Position numbers and translations under genes: made by a program. Below the pieces are notes generated by a model that had not been told where the DNA came from, made no database searches, and was given only the letters and a program-made list of their open reading frames with translations. A stretch of DNA of 64,000 bases, taken from positions 2,666,001 to 2,730,000 of the forward strand of contig NC_089431.1 of the NCBI RefSeq assembly GCF_026210795.1, in the 5' to 3' direction. The first letter of the stretch is position 1. Each line of letters begins with the position of its first letter. Of the stretch, positions 47-63,800 are shown piece by piece. This DNA comes from Rhizophagus irregularis (Eukaryota > Glomeromycota > Glomeromycetes > Glomerales > Glomeraceae).

Positions 47-2726
47 GTTAAACCTGAAAAGGCAATCGAATATCAGGCCACGTATCTTGAATTATGTCGA
101 TATTTGGACTTGGGTACCGGATTTTACCACACAATCGTTGATAACTTAAAAATTCGTGAAAATATAGATTTAGATCGGATTGGAATCGGTAATTGATAAT
201 TTATTTTTTTTGTTTTTTTCCTTTTTGGTTTGAAAAACTATATCATCATATTAATTTATTTAGAGGTTTTCAAGAATAATGTTAATCCTTCGGCCACAGC
301 ATCACGCTCTGTGTCAAAATATCGCAGAAGAGAACTTACTGCCGAATATATTCAGCGATGTCTCATCCACTTAGGTGACTTTGCTCGTTATCGTGAGACA
401 CTTCTCGATGCAAGTGAAAAACGTTGGGAGTTTTCCAGACAGTTTTACACTAAAGCTGCAAGGGTTTATTGTGAGAACGGTAATAGTCGGATTTTAACTA
501 GATATGATATAAATTATAGCAAATCATATAATAATTTATTTTATTTAATAGGTAAGGCACAGGCACAATTAGCTCTTCTTGCAACATATGGTGACAATGA
601 ATTAGATATTGTTTATTGGTATTGTTTTAGGTAATGCATAATATTTGGAATAAAAGAGTTTTTTTTTTGTGATAACTTTATTTTTGCTTCTTTATTTTTT
701 AGTCTTTCAACAAAACAGCCTCCTAGTATTTCCTCAGAAAATCTAAAGTTCTTTTATTCAAAATTTGCCCAACAAATTAACGAAACTCCAAATGGTATTA
801 AAGATGTGTAAGTGAAAATAGTTTATATATTAAGTTGACAAAATTGACAACAAAATTAAAGTTTTTTCATAGTTTAACTGTTAAGGACTTTGCGAAAAAC
901 TTCATGGTTATTCATCGGTATATTTTTGAAAAAAATGTTGAAAAATTGATGGAAAATGATGATGCTGAAAAAATTGTTTATCGTTTTGATTCATTATTGT
1001 CATCATCCGAATCAAGTCTTCGCGATTTGAGTATAACTCTCAAAAAAGTGATATTTATTCTCATATTTACCATTTGGGACTTGCGTAACGGTTCAGGTAA
1101 GATTAATCTAGGCTGAAGTTCCAAATTATTATAATATGCATTATTTAATTTTCATTTTTATTATAGTGCAAAGTCGAATTCGAAATTTGCAAGCTTTAGC
1201 AATTGGATTGGCATTTGGCTTTTTAATTCCGGTTTTTGAGAAGATAAATTCTTTGAACTCTGAAGACGAAGAGAAAAACTATACATTATTCTTACCTATT
1301 GTTATTTTATGGTGCGAATATTTGGGGACATTGACTGATCTTTTGAGTCAGTTGTGTAAATCAGCTGATAAAGAAAATATGAAGATTTCCAGAATGTTTT
1401 TAATGGTATGTTACTATTTATTCCATTTAATACTATAAATATTAGTTATTAACAATATTTTCGTTTTGAAATTCAGAATTTGAAAGCTTTCTTCAAATCA
1501 TTTGTCGATTTCATAAACCATTCAAAATTTTCTAATTTATTGTCTACAAATGATGATTTTCATGAAGTAGCTAAACGTGCTATTTCAGAAGATAACGAAT
1601 TTTTGGGAATAATTCCACTGCGGGTAGTTCATCAGGATATTAACTTTAATATTTTCGGTAATGTTGACATGCTTAAGGTTAGGTTTGCTAGATTAATTAT
1701 TTTTGGTAAGAAAATTTCCGAAACTAGGGTGAGTATATAAAGACATGCAAGAAATTGTATTACTATCTACATATTTAACGCTTTTATTATTTAGTCATTG
1801 GATTTATTAGAATACAATGAATCTACAAGTCAATTCATAATGATTGATGAGGATTTAAAGGTACTGAAGACTTTTGTAAAAAGTTATGTTAAGAAAATAT
1901 GTTTACTTATAACATAATTCTATAGAAAAAAAATCGACAGCGTGTTATGAAATTAATGGCACAACAACATTTGCTATATCAAGTGAATGATTTGGAAGAT
2001 AAAGTTAAGAATATTAAACCTCATCAGTTACAGCAAACTTCACTTGTTGCTTCAAAGGATTCAAATGCAATACCGCCCAAACACTGTGTAGTTGATATTA
2101 CTATTTTCTTAAATCATTTAAATTCTGTTAAGAAATGGATAGCGGACGCAAAATGTATTGTTATTGTACCATTGGAAGGTAAAAAAAAAAATTCATTATT
2201 TTATTTTTTGTTTTAGCATTTAATTATTTCGAGTAACTAAATTCGATAATTACCCATAATAGTTATTGATTATTTGGATATAATCAAAAAAGGAAATGAT
2301 AAAGAAAATATACGTGCAAGAGAAGCCATCCGTTTTCTAGATCAACAATTTCACAAACGGCAACAACAGAGCGAAAAGGAGAATGAGCTTTTCATTCGTG
2401 CCCAGCGAACAAATGAAAAGTTACCACAATGGAATTGCTCAGAGGATTATCTTATTGAAGAAATTGATAGTTCCGAGGATGTTATTTATAAAGACCATAA
2501 AGATAATGAAGAAGGATCAAAAAGTTCTGATGAGTTCAATTATTTAAAAGAGAAAAAATTTGATATCATGGTCATACCACAAAAGTATCGTCCACTTATG
2601 AGTTGTTGGCTATATTATGCTTACGTGGCGAAAATGAATGAGATTTTATTTGTATCGGAAGATCAAGAATTAAAAAAATATGCAAAAATGTTTGGTATTT
2701 CCGTTGTAGGTGTTGAACTTATTTAA
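47..2726 (+). CDS. SMG5/EST1-like nonsense-mediated mRNA decay factor, 5' end missing
   Basis: Exons read as 47-188, 264-479, 552-630, 703-805, 835-1096, 1167-1405, 1477-1728, 1795-1860, 1926-2178 and 2263-2726; all junctions keep frame. The donor at 806 (GTGTAAGT) was chosen because the next GT (808) would run into a stop. The gene begins upstream of the window. The N-terminal part matches the EST1/SMG 14-3-3-like TPR block (LGDFARYRE, then a KAARVY..NGKAQAQLA pattern). The C-terminal part is a PIN domain: CVVDITIFLNHL, then IVIVPLEVIDYLDIIKKG, then a conserved AREAIRFLDQQF helix. SMG5 recruits decay factors to phosphorylated UPF1. Of the PIN acidic residues known from the SMG6 nuclease, the first Asp (CVVD) and a late Asp (SEDQELKKYA) are visible, but the Glu of the NELD-type motif is Tyr here (IDYLD). 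This fits SMG5, whose PIN is thought to be inactive. An EST1/SMG7-type protein is less likely because of the PIN. Confidence 0.8.
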
Positions 2727-2816
2727 TGTTATAGACAAGATAATTAACTATTTCAGATTAATCGCGAATCTTTACATTCGATGATACGATGTAAGTCTAA
2801 ATACTCTATTTTTGTT

Positions 2817-4337
2817 CTATTTAGCTCTTCTTTCAATACCATCTTTTAAAATTTTCTCAAACTTTTGCAATCGCGTAATTGCTTCTAATCCAGGTTCACC
2901 TCGATTGTTAATTATGTTCGGATTTACCGCACTATTTGTTATATCATTTCCATTTGATGATGTATTGTTATTGACTGAGTTATGTTGATCTATGGTACAT
3001 GGAAGGTGAGATACAATTTCTTCATATGATTTTTGTATAGTTTCAAAGTCTTGAAGACTCTAAATGTATTTTGTCAAAAAACAAGCGCTTTATAAAAAAA
3101 TACTTCATAAGATATTAGATTAAATAAAAAAAATATTGAATATTATTTACTTTGCGTATTTTACATAGTCTTTTATTTGCTTCTTGCACTCGATGTCCTA
3201 GACCTAAAATTATCAAGATAAATTAAGATAATGCAAAAATAAAGGAGTAACAAAGCAGTAAATTACCCTCGACGATCTTATCTCCGTCACGCTTAATGTA
3301 ATCCTTTTTAATCCACGGAGAAATTTCGTTATCGTAGATTTCATTAAACCTTTTAAACTTGGATGACAGATCACTAGCAATTACAGAAAGGTCTTCATGA
3401 GTTTGATCATTCACATCTGGTTCATCTAAATATAAGCATGCTTCTTGTTCTTGAATACAATTGGATTCTGCATTAAGGGCTTGTAATTCTTGAATTTTCT
3501 TTCCTTTCATTGACTGAAGTGTAGAGAGATCAAGTTTGCGTTTATCACTCTCTACAGCTTTTTCTTTTCCGATCATTAACAATACATCTCTCGGAAACAA
3601 AACAAATTCTTTTGAAACAATTTTATTAACTAAATCACATTCTTTAGATATGGAATCAATTAAATAACATGATTTTTTGAAATCGTCCGGTTTTCTATAT
3701 CAATGTGAAACACATCAATTCAAATTAAAAAAAAAAACGCGTAAAAAAACTATCAATTTAAACCAGGAAAAAAAGGAATTACATCGAATTTGGTATCTTG
3801 AAAGTATCATCTAGAATAATTCGAGAAGTTTTCAAGATGTTTAATAAATTGAAATAGAAATTTATTAATCGAAAATGAGGTGCTGTCGCCTATCAAGAAT
3901 TGATTAATATCATATAATTGGTGTTCGGAAGGTATAGAAAATTATACATACGTCAATTAAATCTGTGTCGGTTATTTTACATATTCCTAATGAAGCTACA
4001 GTTTGAGTTAAACCTGTAAAAAAAAGTGATCGAAAATTAGGTACCTACTTGTAAAATTTAAAAACTAATAAAAATACCACAAACTTTGTAAGCGCAATTC
4101 ATTATTTTGTGGAAATATTCTTACTAAACGATAATCAATTCTTTCAGAAAAAAAAGAAAAGAAAATTAATAACCTAAAGTATAAGTAAGAAACTGAAACT
4201 TCTTTAATTTACTTTAGCAAAACCCATTCAATAAAATCACAAGCAATTTTTTGATCATTAAGAACTTGATGAAATGTAAATGGTGAATTAATTTCAAAGA
4301 ATTTTTGTGAAATTTCTTCTAATTGTTGATTCATCAT
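2817..4337 (-). CDS. Coiled-coil protein, possible augmin HAUS7-like subunit
   Basis: Read on the minus strand with exons near 4213-4337, 4083-4140, 3953-4013, 3783-3889, 3267-3694, 3151-3203 and 2817-3059. Start ATG is at 4337 and the TAG stop at 2817. The donor of the second exon is uncertain: GTTTGT at about 4082 keeps frame, while the stronger-looking GTATTT does not. The protein is about 320 residues. It begins with a short all-alpha region containing a DFIEWVLL motif and a TDTDLIDATAP stretch, then a charged coiled-coil-like region (about residues 130-230), then an Asn-rich tail. The pattern 'xIEWV ... LG....TD.DLI' resembles the N-terminal calponin-homology-like fold of augmin subunit HAUS7, which helps bring gamma-tubulin to spindle microtubules. 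That assignment is a guess from motif order, so the gene may simply be an unrecognised coiled-coil protein. It converges on the SMG5-like gene with 90 bp between the two stops. Confidence 0.45.
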
Positions 4338-36309: not shown

Positions 36310-37129
36310 TAAGATTTCAGCTATTATATAATCCTTTTCATTCTTAATTAGATTTAAGATGAAATCTGAAGAAGTAGATTTTATCTGTGCTATTTTTTCT
36401 TTGCCTATACTATTAAAAAGCTTATAAACCTTTTCGAATCTCTTCATCCTTTTTCACAAAACTTTATCAGAACATTTTGCTTTAGAAATTGCTTTTTTGA
36501 CCTTACTTTTAACTAATGCTTGAGATCCATCCTTACCATGCTTGAGTTTTAATTTCTTGTATTGTTTAAATACAGCCTTTCCAAAATCAAAATAGCTGTA
36601 AATAAGACCTTGAAATGCATCTTCATTTTTAGATTCAGCGCTATCAATCTTATCATATAGTTGCAAAAAATCGCTGGTTTTGTTTTCACTTGCTTCTTCT
36701 TCCAAGTTCTCTTCAGTTACATTTGATACCACATCAGTTAAAAATTTTTTGATAAGTTTTTTTAGCATACTCGATACTTTCTTTCTACCAGTCTTTTCAC
36801 TTTCTTGCTAGACGATTTTTCAGTAGATGCTGGAATGCATTCTTAACGACGTACGTTTTTTCCTGTACATCGATTTGGATTCGATGTTAGCAAAGCTAAT
36901 TAATTCTGATATCGTTTCGGACGAACACTGGTCAAAATAAAAACTTTCGGTCATGTGACAAATCAGCTGATCTGTCACACATTTTGGCCAAATTTCAGAA
37001 ATTATTAAAAATTGGCCAAATTTTGACATATATGATTTATAGTCGATTTATTGAATTATTTAATCAAACGTTACATGTTACGCATTATACTATTAAAAGT
37101 TTAAAAAAGGATCATCCTTTTTTAAACTT

Positions 37130-37283
37130 TTTTTAATTTTTTTCTTCCCTTTCCTTTCTTTTCCTTTGTTCCCCTTCCCTGTTTCCCCTTCTTCCCCTTT
37201 CCCTTCCTTCATTCTCCTTTCCCTTTCTTCCCTTTTTCTTCCTTCCCCTTCCCCCTTTCACTTTTTTTACTTTTTTTTTATAG
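37130..37283 (+). repeat. Long pure-pyrimidine tract
   Basis: About 150 bases of almost only C and T on the plus strand lead into the first 3' splice-site-like TAG of array A. Mirror-like C/T runs could form a triplex. It also acts as an exaggerated polypyrimidine tract. Confidence 0.8.
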
Positions 37284-38760
37284 GTTCAACTTTCGGTGGG
37301 CTTCCGAAGTACAGAAACTCCAAAAATTCGTAAGTACGAATACTTTGGAGTTTATTTTATTTTTTTTTTAATATGAACGGTTACTAACCGTTCTTTTTTC
37401 TTTCTTTTTTTAGGTTCGGCCATTCGGGTGACTTCCAAAAAATGGAAAAAACCAAGTTTCGTAAGTTCGAAATTTGGTTTATTTTTTTTTAATATTATGA
37501 ACGTTTATTAACCATTCTTTTTCTTTTATTTTTTATAGATTCGGCATCTCAGGTAGGGCTTCTGAGTTTTGAAGAACGAAAAAAACCAAGATTCGTAAGT
37601 ATATACGAATCTTGGTTTTAATTTTTTTTGTTTTTTTTAATTTTATTAATGAACGGTTACTAATAACCATTCCTTTTTTTATTTTTTAGGTTCAAATGGG
37701 CTTCCGAAAAATGAAAACCTAAAGGTAAAGATTCGTAAGTACAAATCTTTACTTTATATTTTTTTTTTGTTTTTTCTTTATTATGAACGGTTACTAATAA
37801 CCGTTTTTTTCTTTATTTTTTTAGGTTCGGGTGGGCTTTCGAAGAACGAAACTCCAAAGGTAAAGATTTGTAAGTACGAATCTTTACTTTATAATTTTTT
37901 TTTTAATTTTATTAATAAACAGTTACTAATAACCGTTCTTTTCTTTTTTTATAGGTTCGGGTGGACCTGAAGAACGGAAAAAGGAGAACCTTTAAGATTC
38001 GTAAGTAATATACTTACGAATCTTTTTTTTAATGTTATGGAATGGTTACTAACCGTTCCTTTGATTTTTTTTTATAGGTTCAGGTGGATTTCTGTCTTTC
38101 CAAGGAACGGAAAAAACTAAAGATTCAGTATGAATCTTTGTTTTTTTATTTTTGTTTATTATTACAAACGGTTTCTAACCATTTTTTTTTTTTTAGGTCA
38201 GTGTCTTCTGAAGAATGGAAAAAACCAAGATTCGTAAGTATGAATCTTGGTTTTATTTTTATTTTTTTTTTATAATATTAACGAATAGTTACTGATAACC
38301 GTTCTTATTTTATTTTTTTAGTTCAGTGGGCTTCCGAAGAACAACAGAAAACCAAGATTCATAAGTAAGTACGAATCTTAGTTCTTTATTTTATTTTTTA
38401 TTTTTATTTTTTATTACTACGAACAGTTTACTAATAACCGTTCTTTTCTTTTTGTAGGTTTCGGGATCTTTAGAAAAAGTGGAACCAAGATTCATAAGTA
38501 CGAATCTTGGTTTATTTTTTATTTTTTTAATATTATTATGAACAGTTATTAATAACCGCTCTTTTTTTTCTTTTTATAGGTTTAAGTATGCGAGTGGATT
38601 CCGATAAACAGAAAAAACCAAAGATTCGTAAGTAGAATCTTGGGTTTTTTTGCTTTTTTTTAATATTATGGAACGGTTACTAACCGTTCTTTTCTTTTTT
38701 TTATAGTTTTGATGAGTTTCCAAAAGATCAAGATTCATAAGTATATACGAATACATGAAT
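37284..38760 (+). repeat. Tandem array A: ~12 exon/intron-like units
   Basis: Exon-like blocks begin at 37284, 37414, 37539, 37690, 37825, 37955, 38078, 38197, 38322, 38458, 38580 and 38707, so spacing is 119-151 bp. Each block (37-56 nt, core GTTCGGGTGGGCTTCCGAAG) follows a T-rich tract and TAG and is followed by GTAAGT or a variant. The donor lies in a palindrome with arms like CCAAGATTCGTA and TACGAATCTTGG. Each spacer also holds GAACGGTTACTAACCGTTC-type hairpins whose top includes TACTAAC, the spliceosomal branch-point consensus. Open frames here come from T-rich DNA and no consistent peptide emerges. Confidence 0.85.
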
Positions 38761-39288
38761 TATATAATTGTAGAATTGTAGATTAGCAATATTTATTTGT
38801 AATATGCATTTATAAATAAAGTTGTGATTTTATTGCAAATATCAAATAAAATGAGTTGTGGCAGAATATTAGTAAATAAATTTAGTACAAATTTGCAATA
38901 TAAATTAAGTAACACTCGGAAAACTATTCACCAAAATTTGCTATCTGAAATTGTTCCGAATGTTAACTGAATTTTAGCCAAAATTTCAAGCCGAACTTTA
39001 GGCGAGTGGCAGCGAATTGCAGCCAAAAAATCTGCTAAAGTTTGACCAGCATTAGACCATAAATCAGCCTAAAATCGGCTGGCTGAATTTTGGCCGATTT
39101 GGACTATTTTGACCAGTGGAAGGACAGGTAGGACACATCTTGTGAGAATTCTTGATGTAATCGTAATGCACAATATGCTTGCAAGGTAAAAAAATGGTTG
39201 GTTTTGTAAATTCTAGGAAGATTTCTTCAGAGCATTTTTCACATATAGGATGTTGGATTTGACTGCTAGTATCCTTTAAAAGAGGCCC

Positions 39289-39700
39289 GTTAAAGCGAGG
39301 TAGAATCACGTGATTTAAAATTATTATGATTTGATAAATTTTTTATAAACTAAAATTAAAGTGAACTTGAAAATCATTAAATAAGTGTATTTCAGCTTGC
39401 TCCACAAGTTTACTTAAGGAGAAAAAGTGGATTTTGAACAATGTTTTTGACTTTACATATGAGCAAACGAATTTTGCTAATCATACTCAAAAAAGGATAG
39501 ATCAATTTTAACGAAATTGAAAAAGTTGAATAAATCAAAAACGGTGTTCTAAACCTCATTTTATGCTCTAAGTAAACTTGCAGAACAGGTCAAAATGCAT
39601 TTAATATATGTTTATTTGGAAGGTTTTATATATAATAAAAAGTTTTATTTAAAAAAAAGAAAAATTTCGAAAGTCACGTGATTCTACCTTACTTTAATGG
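39289..39700. mobile_element. MITE with AGGTAGAATCACGTGA inverted repeats
   Basis: Left end TTAAAGCGAGGTAGAATCAC and right end ending in GTGATTCTACCTTACTTTAA are near-perfect inverted repeats that include a CACGTG. Flanks GGCCC and GGTCC may be a diverged 5-bp target duplication. It sits in the coding sequence of the RING-family gene between ILKGGP and LLKDTSS, whose frame rejoins when the element is removed. Confidence 0.75.
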
Positions 39701-40962
39701 TCCCCCTTTAAAATCAAGTCATCCAAATTGTCAGAATTGCCAGGTGTAGTGCTAATAACCTCAATAGGGCTGGTTATCTGGTCAAAAGTTTCTTTAGTGA
39801 TCCCAGTAGTCTTGAACGAACTTTGTTTCTTTTTGCCTAATAATCCTAATTCGTTCATTAGTGTTATATCATCATCTACGGGAATTTAATTTCCTGAATT
39901 CACTGACTTGAAGATAGTATTTTCATCAGTAGTTGAAGGTTTGTCTTATAATCAGAGTTCTGGAGAAAGAAAAGTTTCAATAACTTTGTTACACTTCTTA
40001 TTCAGACAAATTGCCTCTCCATTTACCAAATGCTTTTCGAGACATTTCTGATTTCACACAAAGCTAAAGTAAATTCTTTAAATGGTAAGAATTTCTGAGG
40101 TAAGTAAAGACCTTCTCTACATAACAAACATGGGTCTACTTCTGAAAAAACAGTATTTTCAGGAAGAATATTTGTACTTTTGAAAATATTAATTGCAAAA
40201 GCTTTGATAGGATTTGTATACATGTTGCCCGCTTTTGATTACTAACCAGAGAATAAGCGATCAAAAAAGGTCTGTCTTTCATATCACTTGTAAATTTCGC
40301 AGGAGAAGATATTCCCTTTGGGATTAATTTTTACCAGCAATTACGCATTGCATTTCGTCATTTTGTTAATCCTCCTGCAAATCGATAAAAATGATTTCAT
40401 AATTAGCATACACATTCCCAAATCCTTTCATGTATATGAAAGTTGCTGAAGCTAAAAATGGTGTCACAAATAAGTAATTGTGGAATATTTGCGATATGTG
40501 GTATTGCAAAATATTGCAGATTTTGAAGTCTATATATCCACAATTCCGCAATCCGTAATTAGACGCAATTCTGCAATTTTTTGCAATTTTGCAAATGATC
40601 TGCAATTTCATAATTAATTGCGGAATTGCAGATCATTTGCAGAATTGCAGATTACCTGCAAAAAAAAGAATAATTTTTTTTAATAAATGTAATTTTTTTA
40701 ATTAATTAATAAAAAAACTGATTTCTTCTTATTACTAAAAGTAAAAAAAATTCAGTTTTTCATTAATAAAATTTTTTAAAATAAATCATTTATTTTTTAG
40801 AAAAAATATACTGGCCGGTTAATTCGATGGTTGTTAATATTAATAGTTAATGATCTGGATTAGATTATCGGATAGCATAGTACAAATCACATAAGAATTG
40901 CATTACGCAATTTTAAATTTTTTTTTTCATTTTAAAAAAAACAATACTGTTTTTTTTTGTAA

Positions 40963-42450
40963 ATTCTGGCCTAGAACTTGGAAATGAAGACCGGTGAGTA
41001 TTTTAAGGGGAGGAAGTGGAGGGGTTTTTTTTTTGTTTTTTTTTATGTAAGAACGTTTATTAACGTTTTTTTACTTCTTTTTTTTGTAGATTTCAGCCTG
41101 GAACTTGGAAATGGAGACCGGTGAGTATTTTAAAGAAAGGGGAAGCAGTTTTTTGGTTTTTTTTTTATGTAAGAACATTTATTAACATTCTTTTACTTCT
41201 TTTTTTGTAGATTTTGGCCTGGAACTTGAAACTTGAGACCAGTAAGTATTTTAAAGGGGGGAATGGGTTTTTTTTAGTTTTTTTATGTAAAAATATTTAT
41301 TAACGTTCTTTTACTTCTTTTTTTTGTAGATTTCAGCCTGGAGCTTGAAAATGGAGACCGGTGAGTATTTTAAAGAAGGGAGTGGGTTTTTTTATTTTTT
41401 TATATAAGAATATTTATTAACGTTCTTTTACTTCTTTTTTTGTAGATTCTGGCCTGGAACTTGAAAATAGAGACTGGTAGGTGTTTCTAAAGAGGAAAGC
41501 AGGGGTTTTTTATGTAAGAACATTTATTAATGTTCTTTTACTTCTTTTTTTTTGTAGATTTTGGCCTGGAACTTAGAAATGAAGACCGGTGAATATTTTA
41601 AAAGAGAAAGTAGGTTTTTTATTTTTTTATGTAAAAACGTTTATTAACGTTCTTTTACTTCTTTTTTTTTGTAGATTCTGGCCTGGAACTTGGAAATGAA
41701 AACCGGTGAGTATTTTAAAGAGAGGGAAGCAGTTTTTTTTTTTATGTAAGAACGTTTATTAATGTTCTTTTACTTCTTTTTTTTGTAGATTCTGTCCTGA
41801 AACTTGGAACTTAAGACCAGTGAGTATTTTAAAGGGAAGGACACTGGTAAAAAAATGATTTATCCTACACATATCTTACACATATTGGGTACTCAAAATG
41901 TAGAAAATCATACACAAATAATACACATATCATACACATATCGGGTACTAATATATATATCATACATATATCAGGTACCTGATAGGTATACTATATATAT
42001 AAGTACCCGATATGTATATGATATGTGTATTATTTGTGTATGATTTTCTACATTTTGAGTACCCGATATATGTAAGATATGTGTAGGATATGTGTAGGAT
42101 AGACCATTTTTTTACCAGTGGGAGTGGGTTTTTTTTGGTTTTTTTATGTAAGAACGTTTATTAACGTTTTTTTACTTCTTTTTTTTTTGTAGATTCTGGT
42201 CTGGAATTTGGAAATGAAGACCAGTGAGTATTTTAAAGGGGAGCGGGTTTTTTTTATTTTTTATGTAACGTTTATTAACATTTTTTACTTCTTTTTTTTG
42301 TAGATTCCAGCCTGGAACTTGGAAATAGAAACCGGTAGGTATTTCTAGAGGAAAAGCAGGTTTTTTATATTTTTTTTATGTAAGAACATTTATTAACATT
42401 CTTTCACTTTTTTTTGTAGATTCCAGCCCAGAACTTTGATTAGTATTATT
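40963..42450 (+). repeat. Tandem array B: eleven exon/intron-like units with invariant 31-nt blocks
   Basis: Exon-like blocks, core ATTCTGGCCTGGAACTTGG, are at 40963-40993, 41090-41120, 41211-41241, 41330-41360, 41446-41476, 41558-41588, 41675-41705, 41789-41819, 42193-42223 and 42304-42334, plus a partial one from 42420. All ten complete blocks are exactly 31 nt. Spacers vary (80-96 nt, apart from one with an insertion). Donors are GTGAGT (6), GTAGGT (2), GTAAGT and GTGAAT. Acceptors are T-rich followed by GTAG, except the first, which is GTAA. Each spacer has a GAACGTTTATTAACGTTC-type hairpin carrying a TTAAC branch-like sequence about 25 nt before the acceptor. Confidence 0.88.
41842..42120. 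mobile_element. Fold-back CACTA-like MITE inside array B
   Basis: Ends CACTGGTAAAAAAATG and CATTTTTTTACCAGTG, with GGA duplicated on both sides (41839-41841 and 42121-42123). The whole 279 bp is one long inverted repeat (for example ACACAAATAATACACATATC against GATATGTGTATTATTTGTGT). A second copy is at 58766-59351. Confidence 0.9.
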
Positions 42451-43054
42451 AAGTTCATCATTGTTATCTGTATTTGATTTAGTTTTTGGTGCAGTTGCAC
42501 CATTTCAGAAATTATGGTTTATTGTTTTTAATAAATAATAAATAAATAAATTTATTAAAAATTTTTTTTTGATTAAATTTATATTTATAAAACCAGTGTG
42601 TTTTTTATTAATTATCATTAGAAAAAAATTTAATTATCAGCCAATTAGAATTGCAGAATTGCGGGTTGCTAATCGCAATTCAGCTCAAAAATTCGCAATA
42701 TTGCGAATTTTGGAAATTATTTGCGAGCCCATCCTTAGCTGGAGTGTTAAGCTGAAAGAAAAATATCCATACCTGAATATTGTTTTATTAATAGCGTGGC
42801 CAAAAACAGCCAGAAGTGCTAAAGCATGACACAAAAATAAATGCAAATCAAGTCAAAAAAAATAATGCAAATATATATGTGATTCACACATCACACAGTC
42901 CCTGTTCATTTCGGCAAGAATTTTACCAAATATCTTCTGCACATTTCAGGTAATCTATCTCACATGATTATTACGACAATAATAATAACCTGATTTTTAT
43001 GTAATCTATTTTTGACCAGACACTAAATTTAAGATAAGTAAATTTAGAGTATTA

Positions 43055-43405
43055 TATTAGTTATGGAATAAAACTTACCAATTGATTCTGATATTAGTGT
43101 TGTGGATGGAGATTACAAACTTTTGAAGGCTCTAGGGTTAATAGTTGATGATGAAGAAACTGAGATAGTTAATGGGAATGACAAATTCGAGGTGGATGAA
43201 GATGATGATGATTAGGGACCGATGATGACGAAATATATAATGGGTTGGCTCATCATCGTAATATTATTTTTAGGGAATTCACCAGGCCGTCCAGGCATCT
43301 TTTAGATATTTCTGAGCAAGCAAAAAATGGATTATTTGACACATTTTCTAAATCTGATGTATTTGGATTGTTAAAACACATTAATGTCTGTATAATGCAA
43401 TAAAC
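43055..43405 (+). pseudogene. Coding-like fragment, acidic, unrecognised
   Basis: One frame reads SDISVVDGDYKLLKALGL and then a run of Asp/Glu codons ending in a stop. After a frame change it continues DEIYNGLAHHRNIIF and SRHLLDISEQAKNGLFDTF. The composition is protein-like but I know no family. Probably the remnant of a transposon or lineage-specific gene. Confidence 0.35.
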
Positions 43406-44573
43406 AAAATTGGCATATAACATTTTTTATGTATAATACAATCATACCACCCATATTCATGCATAGTACACAAGTTAAAAAATAAAATCCAATTTGTGAA
43501 TAACAAATATTTTATTTATTATAATGATGAACTATCAAACATGCTAAAGTAAGAAAAGTAAATTATAAAGTGTTAGGTTGTATACATACATTATGATGTT
43601 TTTCCACTAACTCTACTAATTATACAACCTTTTCATTTGACACTAATAACTTAAAAAAAGTTAATAAGATTTCTGAGTAAGTTGTCATAATTTGCTTCAT
43701 TCGCTTCCTGATAGATTGTAGCTCACTATTCTAAAGAATTTCCATGAGAAAACCAAAAAGTTTTAATTTCTTGCAATTGTTTTTTAAAGTTTCTATTTTC
43801 AAGTACCTTATCAAAGGAAAACCTCTCCATTACTGGATTATGAAATATCAGGTAAAGTGATCGTACCAAACATATGAAATCCATTCTTGAATTATAATTA
43901 ATTGCTTTGTTGTTATCCAATGATTCCAGAATATCATCTGGCATACATTTAAGCACTCCAGCGAATGGCATATTATCACCTTCCATTACACTGTATCTCC
44001 AGTCAGCAATCAAAATGTTTCCATTATTATCACGAAGAAAGTTGTATTTTTGAAGGTCCCTATGTACAATGTGGTATTGTGAATGAACAACTTTAAGGGT
44101 TTTGATAATTTTTTTAATATCTTCCTTTCACAGATTTTTGACTTTCATACAAAAAAGAGTCATAACCAGGGTATTTATATTGCTTAGAAGGAGTTTTGGA
44201 ATATGCGGTAAATTCAATTCTGAAAGTCGAGTCAATGCATTCCTTTCTTGTTTAAAACAAAACAAGTATTCATTCTTTTTTGCTATTTTTACAACTACAA
44301 GTTCTTTATTGCTGTCAATTCCTTCGTATATAATGCTAGTTCTTCCTGCACTAATAGATTGATTCAGAGTTATAGTAACACTGTCAAAATTTAATGATGG
44401 TTCAACCTAAGAGGACTCCATAATTATCATTAAGTATTTCCATCCTGTTGGAGGTTCAGAATCAGCATATTTGTAAATTCTCAAATGCTGTGTATTGATA
44501 CATAAATTGATTATCGCTAGTTTTAGTTATCTTATAGATAGGTATAATAATGCAATCTGTCAACACCACATAT

Positions 44574-45923: not shown

Positions 45924-47365
45924 GTAAGGTCCCAAAAATATTTTTTATTATGATAGTAGCTCTAAGCATAGGTTTTTACTATGATCGCTAAGCATTGTTG
46001 ATATCTAACCTTAAAAATTATATAAAAATAAGCAAATCAATCTTCTAACCTAATTAAATTTTTATTATAACACATATAATTTATAAAATATATTTATTAA
46101 TTAATATATTTTATTAAATCCAATTTTAAATATGTTGTGAAGCTAAACTAAACATAATATACAAGTAGATTAACAATATTCAATTAATAAAGTTAATAAA
46201 CAGTAAAAGAAAAATTCGAAATTAATACTATAACAAAAAATGTAAATTTCTCCATAAGTATTATACTTACACCCATAAAAATTAATATGTAGGTAGTTTC
46301 GACCTTGCTGAACAATTTTCAATTAATTTAGAAAGTCGATTTCATTTGACCAAAGAGGTGTAATTACGCTCTGAAGTTGTAAACGGAGAAATGAAAAATT
46401 CGGAAGTTAGTACCGTAATGAAAAATGCACTTTTCTCCATAAGTATTATACCCACACTCATGAAAATTAATATATAAGTAGTTTCGCCCTTGCTGAACAA
46501 CTTTCAATTAATTTAGAAAGTCGATTTCATTTGACTGAAGTGGTGTAATTACGCTCTGAAGTTATAAACGAAAAAGTGAAAAATTTAAAAGTTATTACCG
46601 TTAAAAAAAATATGCTTTTCTATATAAATATCATACTTAGCCTTATGAAAATTAAAATACAAGTAGATTTAACTTGCTGAACAAACTTACTTAAACATAA
46701 AAGATAATTTGATATAACCAAAGTGGTGAGTAGTGAAATTATATTTTAAAGTAAAACATATTTATAGTAATTTTATTTAACAAAATAAACATGTATAATA
46801 TAGTAATTTTATATTAAAATAATACACTGAGTTTAATAAAAATTAAAAAGATACTATTGACAGATAATTAATAAAACATTGAAAAAAAAAAATTTCATCA
46901 AAAAAAAATTTTTGTTTATGTATTTATATAAAATTGTGAAATGTAGTACAAAATTAACACTCACCGTTAGTGAAAATAAAATAAAAATTAATTATAAATT
47001 CAATATATAATATTTTAAAAAGTTATATAAATATGAAAAATAAGCAACTAAAAACTCTTAGTATTTTAAAATAATACCAAAAATATGCAATTTAATTATC
47101 TTACATAGTATAAAATTTTCTTAAAATTAAGCATTATAAAATTCTTACATTATAAAACTTTACTATGTTGGCTAAGCTATACTTCTCAGTAGAATTAAAA
47201 AGTCAATGTCAAAATATTATAGCATAGCCAAAAACAATTACGTCAGTACAAATGTTTACTAATAAAACATATAATTACGGCGAATTATGGCATTTTAATT
47301 ATATCTGTCATAATTCAAAAATTCAATTCCGCTGATAAGTATAGGCTAAGCACCTTGGTACCTTA
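45924..47365. mobile_element. hAT-like element with ~180-bp internal tandem repeats
   Basis: Ends GTAAGGTCCCA and TGGTACCTTAC are inverted repeats of 10/11. Flanking TTATATAG and ATATATAA match at 6 of 8. Inside, three units of about 180 bp (about 46205, 46390 and 46575) share GTAGTTTCGACCTTGCTGAA and AAAGTCGATTTCATTTGAC. The same unit is in the element at 49304-50681, so the two are relatives. It lies in the first intron of the Crinkler-type gene. Confidence 0.6.
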
Positions 47366-47385: not shown

Positions 47386-48380
47386 TAGAGCTCCGAACGG
47401 GTCAGGTCAACCCGGGTGACCTGACGGGTTGACCCGAAAAATTCAGGTCAGGTAGCAAATTTAATGATCCGACCTCGGGTCGGGTCAGTCACAAGTCGGG
47501 TATCTGACCCGACCCGTTGACCCGATATATTTTGGGTCAATAAAAGACGTTTCGGCGTTTTTTATATATAAAAAATGCCAACCCGTTTTTTTGACTCAAA
47601 TCCGACATTTGTTCATAAAAATAATAATAATAAACGTCTTTTTTTAATGAAAAAACGCCGAACCCGACGTTATTTCATTAAATAAATCAAAAAAACGTTT
47701 TTTAATGAAAAAACGCCGAAACCGACGTTATTTCATTAAATGAATGAAAAAAAAACGTTTTTTAATGAAAAAACGCCGAACCTGACGTTATTTCATTAAA
47801 ATAAATAAAAAAAAACGTTTTTTTAATGAAAAACGCTGAATCCGACGTTATTTCATTAAATGAATAAAAAAAAACGTTTTTTTAATGAAAAAACGCTGAA
47901 CCTGACGTTATTTCATTAAATGAATAAAAAAACGTTTTTTTAATGAAAAAACGTATAACCCGACGTTATTTCATTAAATAAATCAAAAAAAGACGTTTTT
48001 TTAATGAAAAAAAAGCCGACCTGACGTTTTTCATTAAATGAATCAAAAAAACGTTTTTTTTTTAACATCAACGGGTTGGGTCAGGTACCCGACCTGACCC
48101 GATATAAAAAACGTTTTGGCGTAATCTAATATGTAAAAAAATGCCAAAACGTTCTTTTCCACAAAATAATTGTAAAAAAAAACGTTAGAGCTTTTTCTTA
48201 TAATTTGATATATAAAAAACGCCGAAACGTTTTTTTGATCCAAAATATCGGGTTAACGGCCGGGTCTGGGAAGTACCCGAACTGACCCGTGATATTCGGG
48301 TCGGGTCATCAAATTCGTGACTCCCCCTCGGGTCGAGTTAAGTCAATTACCCGACCCTACCCGACCCGTTCAGAGCTCTA
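47386..48380. mobile_element. hAT-like MITE with perfect 8-bp duplication, TAGAGCTC ends
   Basis: Left TAGAGCTCCGAACGGGTC and right GACCCGTTCAGAGCTCTA are inverted repeats with one mismatch. TTTTCTGG is duplicated exactly (47378-47385 and 48381-48388). Subterminal regions are unusually G+C-rich and made of GGGTC/GACCC motifs. The centre is a satellite-like array. No transposase is visible. Confidence 0.92.
47590..48055. repeat. ~60-bp tandem repeats inside the TAGAGCTC element
   Basis: About eight units of the form AACGTTTTTTAATGAAAAAA CGCCGAACC... GACGTTATTTCATTAAAT, with small variations in A-run length. Every unit can pair AATGAAA with TTTCATT, so the array can also fold as a series of hairpins. 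Confidence 0.85.
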
Positions 48381-56724: not shown

Positions 56725-57710
56725 TTAGAATTTTTTTGACTTTGCTGTAACTCCTATTATATCTTGTAATACATTTCTAATAAAATCTTCACTTTGACAT
56801 TTAATTTGTTTTTGTTTTAAACATATAATTATAGATTTTTCTGTTGTAATTTCTAAAATTTTTTGCCAAATCAATTTATATGCTTGACATTCAAATAAGT
56901 AATTCCAATTTTCCTTCTTGTTACAGTTCATAATACATTTCATCTCCTTATAAAGTTTTGGCTTTCTTAATGCTAGAATAGATCCTAAAGAAAGGATTTT
57001 ATGAAATAGTTTTGCTATAAAAGTCCACAAATAGTTAGTTTGCATACTAGTGCAGTGAAACCCTTTGCAATAATGGAAAATAATCCAAGTAATTTTCCAG
57101 TCTATCTGATTGATATTTGCATAACATAATTCCTGATTATTTTTTAGTAATGACCATTCAGTAGCTTCATGTGTAGCTAATATTTTCAAAATAAATCGCC
57201 TAATAATATTAACTTCAATAGGACTATCTATAAAAACAGGAAAATAAGATAGTATATTATCGATAAAATCTACATTATTTTTAAAAAGATTATTTCCATA
57301 TTGGCCTTTTTTTGCCAATTTGTCAGTTATATCATTTCCTATGATGCCACTATGTCGTTTTATTTTAACCAGCTTTATGTTTATTGATGCCTCTCTGATC
57401 AGCATAATTATTTTAATAATGATCAAGTTATTAGTTTTTTTGAGCCATTTTCTAGTTGTTGAATCAAAAGCTGAGTTAATTGAATTAATAGCACTTAAGC
57501 TATCTGTGTATATAGTTACATTAGAATTTTCTGGTGCTGTCAGTAATGCTAAGAAAATAGATGATGGCCAGAGATATAGACTTGAATATACTGAATATTC
57601 TCCTTCTTCATTATTTGTATAAAATGCTACTCCTAAATTTACCATAGTATTATCTGCCATATTATATGAATGATTATTGGTATCTATAATTTAATTAGCT
57701 AGTGATCCAT
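56725..57710 (-). pseudogene. LINE RNase H domain and zinc-binding tail
   Basis: RNase H carboxylates are visible in YYTDGSLAN (just upstream of 57660), IYTDSLSAIN and GNDITDKLAKKG, with RHSGIIGND at the usual place. The tail has CIMNCNKKENWNYLFEC, a zinc-knuckle-like spacing in which the usual His is Tyr. The stretch from 57660 to 56725 is open, the longest intact part of the element. Confidence 0.8.
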
Positions 57711-58765
57711 CTGTATAATATTTAATGTTTTTCAATGACCTTAATTTATATCGTATATTTGTAAGTTCTTGTCTAAGTGTATCTTGTTCTTTTTCTTTAC
57801 AAGTCCTATTGATAGTTTATTATTTTTATCTTTTATTATCACATACGGGTGTTTTCACTTGTCCTCTGATACTGGCTGTAATATATTATCAGGAAATTAA
57901 ATATAGAAAATCTGGATATTTCTATTATCAATATTCCCTTGATCTATTGGGTCAACAGCTAAAACCATTTAGCTATTCGTCCTTTGGCTGATAGTCTTGC
58001 AATAAAATGATAACATACCCAACTCATAGTATGTCCAGAAGGTAATATTAATTGACTAGCATATATAAGTGGGTATGAATTTGAGGTTCCAATTTTTCGT
58101 AATAAATTGAGGCATCTATGTGTTATAAATATTTCTCTAATGGGTATACTCCCCCGCTGATAGTCCATGTTGTCCTATTTATATAATCTTATTGTATAAC
58201 AATATTTAACTTTTGGGCTATAATAATATTATATAAACTTAGATTAGATTTGGCTTCTTGATGACCTAAAAATAAAGATCCTGATTCATGTTCAAAAATA
58301 TTATCATGTATAGCCAAACGTAGCTGTGCAGCTCTACATCTTATTATTATGAATCTAGATGCCAGTGAATTACTATTTATTAAATATGTAAAGAAAGTAA
58401 TCTGATTTGCGCATATTTGATCCCATGGATTATTAATTCCTAAAATGTATTGATGATATAATGCCGATATTAGATAACTCCTAGGCAATCCACATATTTG
58501 CTTAACTAACTTGATTACTGGAGTAAATAAAAGATTCCATTCATTTTCTGATAATGTCATTAATTGGGCTACATATACTACTCTTGGAATGAGAACGTGA
58601 TTAATAAGATATGCAATGTGTCCTACTGTAATACGTTTTCGTTTGATGGGATTCAAAAATTTTTCAATTATATCCTTAATTCTTTTGATTGATCTTTTTC
58701 TTGAATTGGAAGAAGAGAAATAACATTCTAAATAATGTATTTCTTTATCTGTGGCTTGAACCTTT

Positions 58766-59351
58766 CACTGGTAAAAAAATGGTCTATCCTACACATATTC
58801 TACACATATCTTATATATATTGGGTACTCAAAATGTAGAAAATCATACACAAATAATACACATATCATACACATATCGGGTACTTATATATAGGGTTGTG
58901 GTAGTACACCTGTACTAGCAAAATTCTAGTACGTACTGTACTAGCAAAAAATTTCGTACAATCTTTTAAGTACACTGTACTAATACAATTATTACTTTTT
59001 AGGATATAATTTAACCATTTTAGGTAAATATCATGTGATCAATATTGTTTATATTTATAAAATTAACCAATAAAATTTATTAATAGTATGTACTAAAATT
59101 GTATTTGTACTAAATTTTCAAGTACAAGTACAGTACTTAGTACTGTACTATACTGTACTAGTACTGTACTAGTACAATTCTCAACCCTGCTTATATATAT
59201 AGTATACCTATCAGGTATCTGATATATGTATGATATATATATTAGTACCTGATATGTGTATGATATGTGTATTATTTGTGTATGATTTTCTACATTTTAA
59301 GTATCCAATATGTGTAAGATATGTGTAGGATAAATCATTTTTTTACCAGTG
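58766..59351. mobile_element. CACTA-like MITE, second copy, with a nested insertion
   Basis: Ends CACTGGTAAAAAAATG and CATTTTTTTACCAGTG (one change near the right end) with TTT on both sides (58763-58765 and 59352-59354). It belongs to the same family as the element at 41842-42120. It interrupts the LINE between the RT core and the next domain. Without the nested insertion it would be about 280 bp. Confidence 0.9.
58891..59189. mobile_element. hAT-like MITE nested in the CACTA-like MITE
   Basis: Ends TAGGGTTG and CAACCCTG are inverted repeats with one mismatch. CTTATATA is duplicated exactly at 58883-58890 and 59190-59197. The interior is dominated by GTACTAGTAC and GTACTGTAC palindromes. 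Confidence 0.9.
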
Positions 59352-59379
59352 TTTGATTTGTCACATCCAATAATAATAT

Positions 59380-60100
59380 ATAGATTATCTCTAGGTAATT
59401 TAGGATTAATAACTATCAGTTTGAACTTTTTCCCATTTATATCTACATCATGAAAATGATAGAACTGTGTGGCTATATTGATCGATGCCTGAATTTTATC
59501 CCCTAAACTATCCAAATAGCTCGTATCATCTATATAGGCTTTGACTGGTATCCTTAATCTAAATTGCTGCTATGTTGATCGATCCCAAATATCTGTAGGC
59601 CATGTATTCACCATTTCATATCCTTGTTGGTAGTTGCACGCTTGTTGAATGGCTACAAGCAATGGATTGTAAAAGATTCTCCATAGGAGAGGTGAGATTG
59701 CATCTCTGGTCTATACCATCTCCTCCTATGAAAGTTGGACTAGGGCTGAAAGCTATTATTACGTTCATTTGTCTATTCTTGAATAGGCCTGTAATCCATA
59801 TGACAAATTTCTCTAGTATGTCTAGCTTTCTTAATGCTAATTATAGACTTTCTAGACTAACTGAATCATAAACTTTCATCATATCTTGGGTTACTACCCA
59901 AAGTTCCCTTCCATTTTCCCTTGCGTCTTCAATTATATTATTCATCAATCGTAATAGTATTGCTATGTCTTGCTCTTTGAGACCGCAAAAATTTAATCTG
60001 CGTAAAACTTTATTAGATGTCAAAATTGCACTTAACCGATTTGTTATTTACTTTGGTGACGTATTTCCTAATATTATCTAATAATGCTATGGGACGCGTG
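59380..60100 (-). pseudogene. LINE reverse transcriptase core, frameshifted
   Basis: Motif A region reads LWVVTQDMMKVYDSVSLESL (about 59845-59905). A following segment at 59650-59740 needs a frame change between the first bases of motif B and the next helix. The catalytic YxDD is present as AYIDDTSYL near 59515-59550. At least one frameshift lies between motifs A and C. Confidence 0.8.
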
Positions 60101-61299
60101 TTGCCAAAATATAATTGAATTTTTGTGGTTTTGGAATTAGGTGGATAGGTGACTGCTTCCACTGGTCTGACACAACTCCTATTTTCAAGGACAGATTAAT
60201 GAATTTTAATAAAATATAATTAGATTTTTCTGAGAAATGTTTAATTATAGCATATCCAATGCCTGAAGGACCTTGCGCTGAATTCGTATTTACAAACTCA
60301 AGTGTTTGATGTCATTCTCCTATTGTTATCTTGTTCATTAGGTTAGTCATACATTCAGTGAATTCCCCTTTCGGCCTATATATATTACTCCAGAAAACGT
60401 TCTGTTCTATTGACTTAGTATTGCATTTTCGTAAAATTCCTGCAAAAGTATCTTTTGCATGAGTTCTAATTGTATCAGGATCAAAAGCTAATCTAACACC
60501 TTCATTCTCATTAGAAATTACTGCTCTATCAATGACAATGTGTTCTTTAACGTTATCTTGTGGGGAGTGTAACCATTTAGGGATATCTGAGTGTATTATG
60601 TTGCACTGATTTTCTATACTATCTTGGATCTTACATAGCCGTTGCGCTTGTAAATAGTTTTTATCTATTTTGACTCTCTTTTTAAACACTTTTTTAGCAT
60701 TCTTTATCCATGTGTTACTGAAGAGACTATTTGTAGGAATAGTAATTTCTTTATGATTATCAATAAATTTATCATATTCTATCCTGTTGTAATCTTTGTT
60801 GTATTTATTGATTCTATTTATCCAAAAATTAATCCATTTATCATCTTTATTGTCAATGAAATCCTGATCCTTGCTTATTTTCCTCATTAAACTTTCCAGT
60901 TTAATGGTATGTCGCATGGTTTTATCTACAAATGATAATTTATGTCTTGTATTACGACTTTCCAGATATTTAACTATCTTCGTAGGCAGCTCTATATTCA
61001 CCGCTATTGATATTGTGCTCATGATATTATTCCAAAGCTCATTAAATCTACATCTTATTTTTTCTCCATCATCGTTCGTTTTATATCCTAATTGTATTTT
61101 ATAATTGAATTTATCGATTAATTGTTGAAAGTCCCATGCCTCTATTTTTCTGTCCAGTATTTCAGTAAAATTCTCCCATTGTAAATTAGTTATTTTACTG
61201 ATGTCTACTATGCGATTATTCTGATGTCTATCATCTAAGTTTAAATCCTGTATCTGATCTAGGACACAATACCAGAAGTTGTTCTTAATAATAAATCCT

Positions 61300-62084
61300 G
61301 ATATATTTACCGTTGTTGAAATAATACTATGATGGCTATTTGTGATCATCTGTGATGAGTGCACCGAGAATTCTACTGGAATAACATCGGCTTCATGTAT
61401 GATCCAAATTTGATCAATTCTTGATATCGAGATAGGGCTTGATTTATCCTTATTTTTATCTCATTTCTCATGTGTAAATAGCTCTGTATCTGGATAAAGA
61501 GCTCAGCAAACATCATAAAGTCCCAGTTGCGATAACTGTATCAGAAATTGTAATCCTGGTTGTTCAGTACTAGGCGAGCGATCTATTTTATTGTCAATTG
61601 TATCGTTAAAATTGCCTAATACAACGTGTAGTACTACGGTGTTGTGAATTGATCAGTTATGTTCCTCTATAGCCATTTTCAATTCATCAATCAAGTTTTT
61701 CCTCATATCTTGATTGTTAGGGGTGGCATATATTGACCAGATCCATATTTCTCTCTGTATGAATAAGAATTTAACTATTATGATATATGGAGATATGTAT
61801 TCTACTGCATAGTAATATTTCATCTATCTGTTATAAATCACAAGTGCTGTTCCTGATCCTTTGGTTTTTTGATCTCATTCACTGAATATTATTGAGTAAA
61901 CCTTTGACTTAATATCTTGGTTTATAAAATATTCCTGACAATAGTCTATATTAGTTTCTGATATAGCCATAATATTGATATTATTTTTTTCGATAAATTC
62001 TAACAAACTGTGAAGTTTTTGTATAGACGGAGTACTAGCTATCCCATCTATATTATATGCTACTATGTGCAAGTCTAAATACAT
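61300..62084 (-). pseudogene. LINE AP-type endonuclease domain, interrupted
   Basis: Motifs in order: HIVAYNIDGIAS, AISETNID (catalytic Glu), VVLGNFNDTID (GDFN-type), SRIDQIWI, and NSHHSII where SDH is usual. Stops fall between several motifs. The Asp-to-His change in the last motif would itself be expected to weaken catalysis. Confidence 0.75.
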
Positions 62085-62377: not shown

Positions 62378-63047
62378 GTCTGAAATTATTTTAGTATTAC
62401 GGAAATACGTAATTACGTAATTCTGTAATTATTAAGTAATTCATTAAAAAAACTCCGTATTCCGTAATTGATTTCAGACTCTGTAATTAATTTCGTATTA
62501 CGAAAATATTTGGCCAGACTTAATTTTGGCCGATTTATATATATAAACTTTAACAAATAATAACTCGGCACCCAGTGATCCATTTTGGATGATCTTACTA
62601 CCATTTGATTCGTCTTGATAAGACAATTCTAATGGTAGTAAGATCATTTAAATCCAATCACTAGATCGCGATCCGATACCAATAACTTTTAAATATTTAT
62701 AGCGTAATAGCTCTGCCAATTTCAATGCTAGAAAGATGATCTTACCGCCATTAGAATCGTCTCGTCATGACAAATCGAATGGTGGTAAATTCATTCAAAT
62801 CTAATCACTGGATCGTACTCCGACACCAAAATTCATTAAATGTTTATAGTAATTTTACTCCATTAATATCGGTGCTATAGAAATGAAACACATATCATTA
62901 GATTCGTCTCGATGAGACGAATAGAATGGTAGTAAGATCATCGAAATCTGATTACTAGATCCCGAGATATTCGCAATTTCGCACTATTATGCAAATTTCA
63001 GAATTTCGGAATACGTAATTAATTACGATTTCGTAATTTCAGATTTT
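62378..63047. mobile_element. Palindrome-rich MITE inside the LINE 5' region
   Basis: Both ends carry TCTGAAATTA next to TACG/AATTACGTAATT-type palindromes. The middle has three copies of a hairpin module made of GATCTTACTACCATT and AATGGTAGTAAGATC arms around a GATTCGTCT..AGACGAAT core (62588-62650, 62730-62800 and 62895-62945, the last partial). LINE-like coding sequence is recognisable on both sides. No clear target duplication was found. Confidence 0.6.
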
Positions 63048-63261
63048 GGATTTGCCAATTGAATCTCGGAAACAACTATAAACTTGACATTGTTTCAGCC
63101 TTTTTCCGTGTGTAACTCTATTGTTGATCATCTTGTGTAACCTTCGCTCTTGTTTTTTATTTAGGCCAGCTAAAGAAAAAACTGTTGTATTCAATCTCGA
63201 CAAAATAATATTATAATGATATTATATTGGTCACAATATATTATATTAATAATATATATAT

Positions 63262-63800
63262 ATTATAATACAATTAATTTGCTATTTAATAATTAAATTT
63301 GCATAAACTTTTTTTTATTTGTAACCCTCTTTATATTTTATAAAACAAAAAAAAAATCATTAAAATTAAACTGCTAAATAGTAAATTAATTGCAAAAAAA
63401 CCTCTTAATAAATAAATTACTATATATTATATATATATAATATAATTATTTTATTATCCAATAATCCAATTTGCATAAACTTTTTTTGTTTTGTAACCCT
63501 TTTTATACTTTATAAAACAAAAAAAAAATTTATTAAAATTGGATTTTTAAATAGTATGATAATTATAAAAAAAGTTTCTTAATAAATAAATTACTATATA
63601 TTATATATACTATATAATACAATTATTTTATTATCCAATAATCCAATTTGCATAAACTTTTTTTGTTTTGTAACCCTTTTTATACTTTATAAAACAAAAA
63701 ACAAAAAAAAAATTTATTAAAATTGGATTTTTAAATAGTAAGGTAATTATAAAAAAAGTTTCTTAATAAATAAATTATATATTACTTACTATAAAAGATA
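63262..63800. repeat. Three ~175-bp AT-rich tandem units
   Basis: The block AATTTGCATAAACTTTTTTT recurs near 63295, 63470 and 63645, followed each time by GTAACCCT, a TTTATAAAACAAAA stretch, AAATAGTA and a TA-rich end. The first copy is the most diverged. No coding potential. Confidence 0.8.

Follow-up and report, generated by a model that had tools for sequence, protein, structure and literature searches.

The closest described systems are introners and introner-like elements, some of which have TIRs and TSDs (PMC9860276, PMC8469720). In the accessible parts of these sources they appear as repeated spliceosomal introns tied to DNA transposons, with a stable internal structure in fungal introners, and in this respect the arrays reported here are alike. 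They differ in that a single transposon contains a whole tandem series of intron-like units, in an array with gene-like ends. The words 'Rhizophagus' and 'Glomero' are absent from the accessible text of PMC9860276. For R. irregularis, the available parts of two articles report non-autonomous hAT and CACTA/CMC-type TIR transposons (PMC11075540, PMC8647823); 'intron' is absent from the main text of both as accessible. Elements of these kinds have TIRs and 8-bp TSDs (hAT-like), or CACTG ends and 3-bp TSDs (CACTA/CMC-like), as do the elements described below. SP7-like proteins of Glomeromycotina, according to the available text, have a signal peptide, a conserved island and, preceding the first repeat, a conserved intron, with hydrophilic imperfect repeats and paralogues scattered over the chromosomes, and aphid bicycle genes are named there (PMC11333574). 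The present arrays are set beside the SP7-like proteins by description, but the copy analysed here has no open frame. A literature search by titles and beginnings of abstracts, with subscription papers mostly outside its reach, yielded no description of arrays of introns within transposons of Rhizophagus.

The locus belongs to a 64-kb stretch of R. irregularis DNA, referred to as the window (C3:2666001-2730000), from a genome of 146.7 Mb in 32 contigs. On the plus strand of the window, 10 blocks of 31 nt apiece alternate with intron-like spacers, and an 11th block is terminal (Table 1). A first-pass annotation had reported ten such blocks, which were indeed located at 40963-42334. The spacers had been given as 80-96 nt, which holds for the nine unbroken ones, with GT..TAG borders in 9/9, but not for the tenth (41820-42192), which measures 373 nt and is split by a MITE. 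Donor GT, branch motif, pyrimidine tract and AG follow one another at intron spacing, and a U2-type intron layout is thereby present in the arrays. Every unit had been credited with both splice sites; this is right except at the ends, as block 1 lacks an acceptor because GTAA stands before it, and the last block lacks a donor. A chain detector, which links units of donor, branch, acceptor and short exon and was designed after the arrays had been seen, returned 2 chains in the 64 kb, array 1 and 37330-38077, both on the plus strand; it gave 0 chains on the minus strand and 0 in 20 Markov-1 simulations. Neither the MITE nor the second array figured in the first-pass annotation. The original reading of the plus strand as exons and introns agrees with the layout, the signals and the gene-like ends, and we infer that the array-1 introns are probably removed from RNA.

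Table 1. Positions of the arrays, their blocks and the surrounding elements in the window.
Feature	Positions	Strand	Remarks
Second array-bearing TIR element	36926..39118		CACTGGTCAAAATA ends, CACTGGT type; 3-bp TSD GAA
Family-2 array	37284..38720	+	Exons differ from array 1; branch motif in hairpin GAACGGTTACTAATAACCGTTC or variants
Candidate non-autonomous hAT-like DNA transposon with array 1	40453..42737	+	TIRs 40453-40473 / 42717-42737, 16/21 identical
Block 1	40963..40993	+	GTAA just 5'; donor GTGAGT at 40994; read as donor end of a 5' exon
Block 2, internal, exon-like, 31 nt	41090..41120	+	
Block 3, internal, exon-like, 31 nt	41211..41241	+	
Block 4, internal, exon-like, 31 nt	41330..41360	+	
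Block 5, internal, exon-like, 31 nt	41446..41476	+	
Block 6, internal, exon-like, 31 nt	41558..41588	+	
Block 7, internal, exon-like, 31 nt	41675..41705	+	
Block 8, internal, exon-like, 31 nt	41789..41819	+	
Near-palindromic MITE, 279 bp, in intron 8	41842..42120		TIR CACTGGTAAAAAAATG, TSD GGA; foreign to the array
Block 9, internal, exon-like, 31 nt	42193..42223	+	
Block 10, internal, exon-like, 31 nt	42304..42334	+	
3'-terminal exon-like block	42420..42535	+	Acceptor present; no unit-type donor; reaches AATAAA 42530-42535, repeated several times

The array had been placed inside a DNA transposon, and an element with TIRs and an 8-bp TSD was found around it at 40453-42737. Both bounds were found again in other copies of the element. 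The TSD of the window copy is eroded, GCTGAAGC (40445-40452) and GCTGGAGT (42738-42745) matching at 6/8 positions, and exact 8-bp TSDs flank four copies (L009 CTTATTTT, L010 ACTGCAGG, L012 CCCTAAAC and L026 GCTCTATA). The imperfect TIRs and the 8-bp TSD suggest a hAT-like element; no ORF of at least 90 aa was found in it. The MITE that splits the long spacer has full-length matches at many other loci, 98-100% identical, and its ends resemble the CACTGGTC ends of array-carrying elements. An Rfam search of 36500-43500 with E up to 0.1 gave only microRNA-type hairpin matches, below gathering scores, which fall in the subterminal part of the element and in the MITE.

We consider it probable that array 1 is a transposon-borne, spliced micro-exon gene, coding or not. 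A non-autonomous hAT-like transposon would carry, as its cargo, a multi-exon gene of polymerase II type, and the array would form the body of this gene, with a first exon lacking an acceptor, nine internal exons of 31 nt and a terminal exon that contains a poly(A)-like signal. Its ten U2-type introns would each comprise a donor, a short hairpin that holds a TTAAC-type branch motif, a T tract and TAG, and the array would have grown by tandem duplication of a single exon-plus-intron unit. Transcription would start from the element and splicing would be carried out by the host, the window product being a short repetitive RNA without an intact reading frame, although the ancestor of the family may have encoded a repeat peptide. 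Transcription and splicing of the arrays are predicted here from sequence features, and a spliced RNA, which was among the options first proposed, is still the leading candidate. A self-removing element, another of these options, is unlikely: the array opens on a donor and closes on an acceptor together with poly(A)-like signals, and both transposon ends would therefore survive splicing.

Copies of array 1 (family 1) are numerous in the genome. At least 22 array loci, the window included, were recognized with 40 candidates scored, and at least 8 further loci are indicated among the listed matches of the branch hairpin, a 31-mer of which has 182 genome matches against 0 for its reversed control. 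The set used below comprises 21 loci, namely the window and 20 of the 21 others taken with their flanks (C23:544853 was left out). L009 and L010 are among the young copies, and C7:4824461-4825684 and C14:4967980-4968818 are positions of young copies. Arrays inside the hAT-like element form group (a), and group (b) is represented in L013 by an array inside a 4412-bp CACTGGTC element with the TSD CCA. Two different intron arrays lie in this 4.4-kb element, at 860-1640 on the minus and 2003-3274 on the plus strand. Three isolated-looking family-1 matches were followed; two proved to be arrays and one a two-unit remnant, and no single intron was met among them.

The equal length of the blocks had been put forward as a sign of selection, and comparison of copies was proposed as the check. 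Across the 21 loci, block length is 31 nt in 103/140 cases, with a range of 28-36 nt and an SD of 1.18, and 99 family-1 spacers have a length SD of 4.98. The block varies less than the spacer but is not fixed. The hairpin segment within the spacer is steadier than the block (24 nt in 94/95, SD 0.31), and the exons of the second array family described below are 30-50 nt long in the majority sequence. Spacer indels fall mostly in the T tract and in a purine/T stretch, and the contrast between block and spacer arises because slippage acts in low-complexity tracts. Block length as a mark of selection was rejected, as blocks elsewhere have 28-36 nt and the hairpin segment is more constant.

The ends of the arrays recur among the copies. 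In group (a), the acceptor G is missing in 8/8 first blocks of the copies that retain this end, against 3/77 other blocks. In the last block the acceptor is retained, a unit-type donor is lacking and the sequence passes into AATAAATAATAAATAAA, with AATAAA repeats, in 9/9 copies with a right end. First blocks in L021, L024, L025 and L027 likewise lack an acceptor, in a different context. Since the copies share ancestry, these losses and retentions are not independent events, and the gene-like ends may have been inherited from one ancestor. The donor GT is present in 70/73 units of group (a), with values of 0.97/0.99 against an exon-site mean of 0.92, a small contrast, and in group (b) GT reaches 0.98/1.00 and AG 0.99/0.97 against an exon mean of 0.85; units were picked by their splice motifs, by which motif conservation is overstated. 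Co-variation was tested in the family-1 branch hairpin and none was found. At hairpin columns 17/27 and 18/28, CpG decay is strand-consistent per unit (Fisher p 0.012 and 0.006), as if deamination had hit one strand at a time. An already spliced junction was sought in the genome with one group (a) pattern allowing 3 mismatches, and 0 matches were obtained.

A second array-bearing element lies about 2 kb upstream of the first, at 36926-39118. Its family (family 2) has at least 20 near-full copies in the genome (40 candidates scored). The majority sequence of 22 copies contains 11 units by donor motif and a twelfth by spacing, all with GT and TAG. Comparison of 11 exon bodies gave a mean identity of 0.61, with the splice signals kept. 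The exons close with similar motifs, as in micro-exon and repeat gene families, among which the aphid bicycle genes are comparable in layout. The last bases of a family-2 exon pair with the first bases of its intron, so that the donor sits in a hairpin and the units are near-palindromic there. Cognate donor arms pair better than shuffled or swapped arms at 8/8 loci (at most 1 of 10000 shuffles), the sites tested being all GTAAGT motifs preceded by a T tract and AG, among them one in L029 that lies outside the array. The donor stem uses different base pairs between units at exon positions -11 to -8. Matching arms could also come from hairpin-templated copying. Fold z-scores averaged -4.85 for 8 family-2 introns and -0.93 for 9 array-1 introns; four ordinary introns, marked by eye and in three cases misplaced at their borders by a few bases, ranged from -0.2 to 0.6. 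In family 2, CpG changes that destroy a donor (16) were no less frequent than harmless CpG changes (10).

At least four array families with unlike exons follow one plan of GT, branch hairpin, T tract and AG. Families 3 and 4 conform to the plan of families 1 and 2, their locus counts being lower bounds with 40 candidates scored for each. Two kinds of transposon ends are involved, hAT-like and CACTGGT. Termini of the CACTGGTC type with a 3-bp TSD were met at 36926-39118 (GAA) and at L013:269-4680 (CCA), and one element end of this type was seen in family 4; we take elements with CACTG ends and a 3-bp TSD to be of CACTA/CMC type, a superfamily name given by the ends only. Exons compared across families (9, 4, 2 and 1 of them) gave no match. 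In their 3' halves, the introns of family 1 match those of family 2 at E 3e-12, against a best value of 5e-4 in 40 shuffles, and those of family 3 at 8e-7 against 4e-4 in shuffles; the 3' halves of families 2/3 and 1/4 are no closer than shuffles. These similarities suggest that the introns of families 1-3 may belong to one lineage, combined with different exons, and the notion that the families are wholly unrelated was rejected, as the 3' halves are alike in 1/2 and 1/3. Under the spliced-gene reading, this plan recurs in the CACTGGT-ended elements, with intron 3' halves that resemble one another between families 1 and 2 and with exons that differ. The donor-arm shuffle is uninformative in family 4, L068 and L069 having few units. 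L068 (C9:5170000-5173300) holds a degenerate array of family 4, in which about 22 starts resemble those of blocks and which ends near a CACTGGTC-like terminus, and by eye its last intron holds an unrelated near-perfect hairpin around TTGAC.

A repeat protein had been judged an improbable product. For the window copy this stands, as the joined blocks contain 2, 6 and 7 stops in the three frames and coding by this array is not supported, but family 2 shows signs of coding. All frames are stopped in 14/21 family-1 loci, the window included, and an open frame exists in 7/21, against a shuffled-letter mean of 1.9 (0 of 200 shuffles). The corresponding figures are 12/17 short chains against 2.9 (0 of 200) in family 2 and 0/11 chains against 0.9 in family 3; the excess over letter shuffles is overstated because shuffles ignore repeat structure, and the block-finding regular expressions behind the frame and peptide counts miss some blocks. 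In L010, 7 blocks read without a stop into the terminal exon; the same terminal-exon frame has 2 stops in the window, 3 in L009 and 2 in L026.

The 12 joined exons of the family-2 majority yield a single stop-free frame of 171 codons. The idea that joined family-2 exons are full of stops proved wrong with the count of open chains. The open frame alone proves little because its probability is P 0.059 under random exon phases. Family-2 exons are open in 29/36 phases against 14.3 when shuffled (0 of 2000). Three frames are often readable at once in these exons. Changes between copies in the 171-codon frame, CpG sites excluded, amount to 0.045, 0.068 and 0.092 by codon position, the third being highest. 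This third-position excess was reached by 4/5000 random phasings, or 18/5000 without CpG sites. Stop-making changes were slightly fewer than expected in this frame (22 vs 28.9; 40 of 300) and numbered 92 vs 63.7 and 80 vs 71.8 expected in the other two; the repeated units behind all these codon statistics are not independent. As the frame requires intron removal at the mapped borders, the codon signal is moderate evidence of past splicing, and possibly of coding, in family 2.

Array pieces are also found in protein sets. Joined blocks of L011 match 22 predicted proteins, the names among the matches listed being all from R. irregularis, and a junction-type peptide, sought with a pattern made for this analysis, occurs in 21/22 of them. 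In several R. irregularis annotations, gene models join family-1 blocks. The family-2 reading is matched by 112 predicted R. irregularis proteins, some labelled isoforms. The family-2 models mix frames, and by eye P0006 takes an internal AG; the gene models are therefore predictions, not proof, and may be ab initio. Seven predicted proteins gave no match in Pfam. For annotation, this is a warning that R. irregularis protein sets hold array pieces as hypothetical proteins.

Protein coding would be a special case of the spliced gene, a micro-exon family encoding short repeat peptides of basic or acidic character, with a window copy that has decayed. The joined frames open above shuffles in families 2 and 1, the 171-codon frame with its third-position excess, the stop-free L010 reading and the 112 matching predicted proteins speak for it. 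We regard it as unlikely nonetheless, considering the overstatement by letter shuffles, the 14 family-1 loci stopped in all frames and the absence of open chains in family 3, the stops of the L010-type frame in the window, L009 and L026, the frame shifts caused by blocks of 28-36 nt, and the lack of a Pfam match for seven proteins. A plain minisatellite, in which a transposon would have captured an exon-intron piece of an old gene and amplified it via slippage and unequal exchange, leaving the splice signals as relics, is rather improbable too. The length differences among spacers lie in T and purine tracts, as expected from slippage, the CpG donor changes reveal no selection in single family-2 copies, and the hairpins carry CpG-type decay; such a history would nevertheless leave the gene-like first and last blocks, the family-2 donor arms, the codon-position signal across joins and the one plan in several exon families poorly accounted for.

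The sharing of that plan could instead reflect introner-like spread, one intron lineage being copied beside different exons and piled up in tandem. It would fit the alike 3' intron halves in families 1/2 and 1/3 beside exons unmatched across families, as well as the branch-hairpin matches absent from the reversed control, and the structure recalls fungal introner-like elements as described in the available part of PMC8469720. This is very unlikely, given that families 2/3 and 1/4 are no closer than shuffles, that the isolated-looking matches turned out to be arrays or a two-unit remnant, and that copies travel with whole transposon ends and TSDs. The presence of arrays in TIR elements with two end types, and family-2 units that are near-palindromic at the donor, would suit a role at the DNA level, with hairpin repeats that bind transposase or shape DNA for transposition and an incidental likeness to introns. 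Such a role is highly improbable in view of GT, branch, T tract and AG being intron-like in order, spacing and orientation in four families and of array ends that resemble terminal exons.

At least two kinds of transposon carry arrays, suggesting that the array may help the element. A guess, which we hold to be doubtful, is that the intron-rich transcript keeps the element expressed and resists small-RNA silencing. In C. elegans, introns limit nuclear RNAi, and a three-intron sensor had fewer silencing small RNAs than a single-intron one; the accessible text of this source also refers to plants, where transgenes that contain introns are protected (PMC5554785). Small-RNA loci are reported for R. 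irregularis in the available part of PMC10234402, which also names stranded short-read and Nanopore poly(A) data sets of spores and colonised roots (Table 2), and the intron barrier shown in C. elegans is an analogy for the arrays here. In a wider and equally tentative version of the spliced micro-exon gene, there would be a class of DNA transposons with an array of micro-exons and structured introns as main cargo. Repeated splicing would itself be the adaptation, hairpins would enclose the donors and branch points, and the transcript would mimic an intron-rich host gene and escape small-RNA silencing, one intron lineage having been combined with several exons. If spliced, the arrays would be an unusual transposon cargo, mobile genes that are mostly intron, represented within one genome by several families of exons and by transposon ends of at least two kinds. 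They would then offer a natural experiment on how a parasitic element might profit from introns, on the structures surrounding splice sites and on the origin of multi-exon genes.

Other tandem arrays of the window, at 46190-46684, 47612-48060, 62588-62961 and 63245-63782, have periods of 185, 60, 147 and 172, and the chain detector found no intron chain in them. On the minus strand, 56725-61364 contains long ORFs that resemble, by eye, parts of a retrotransposon.
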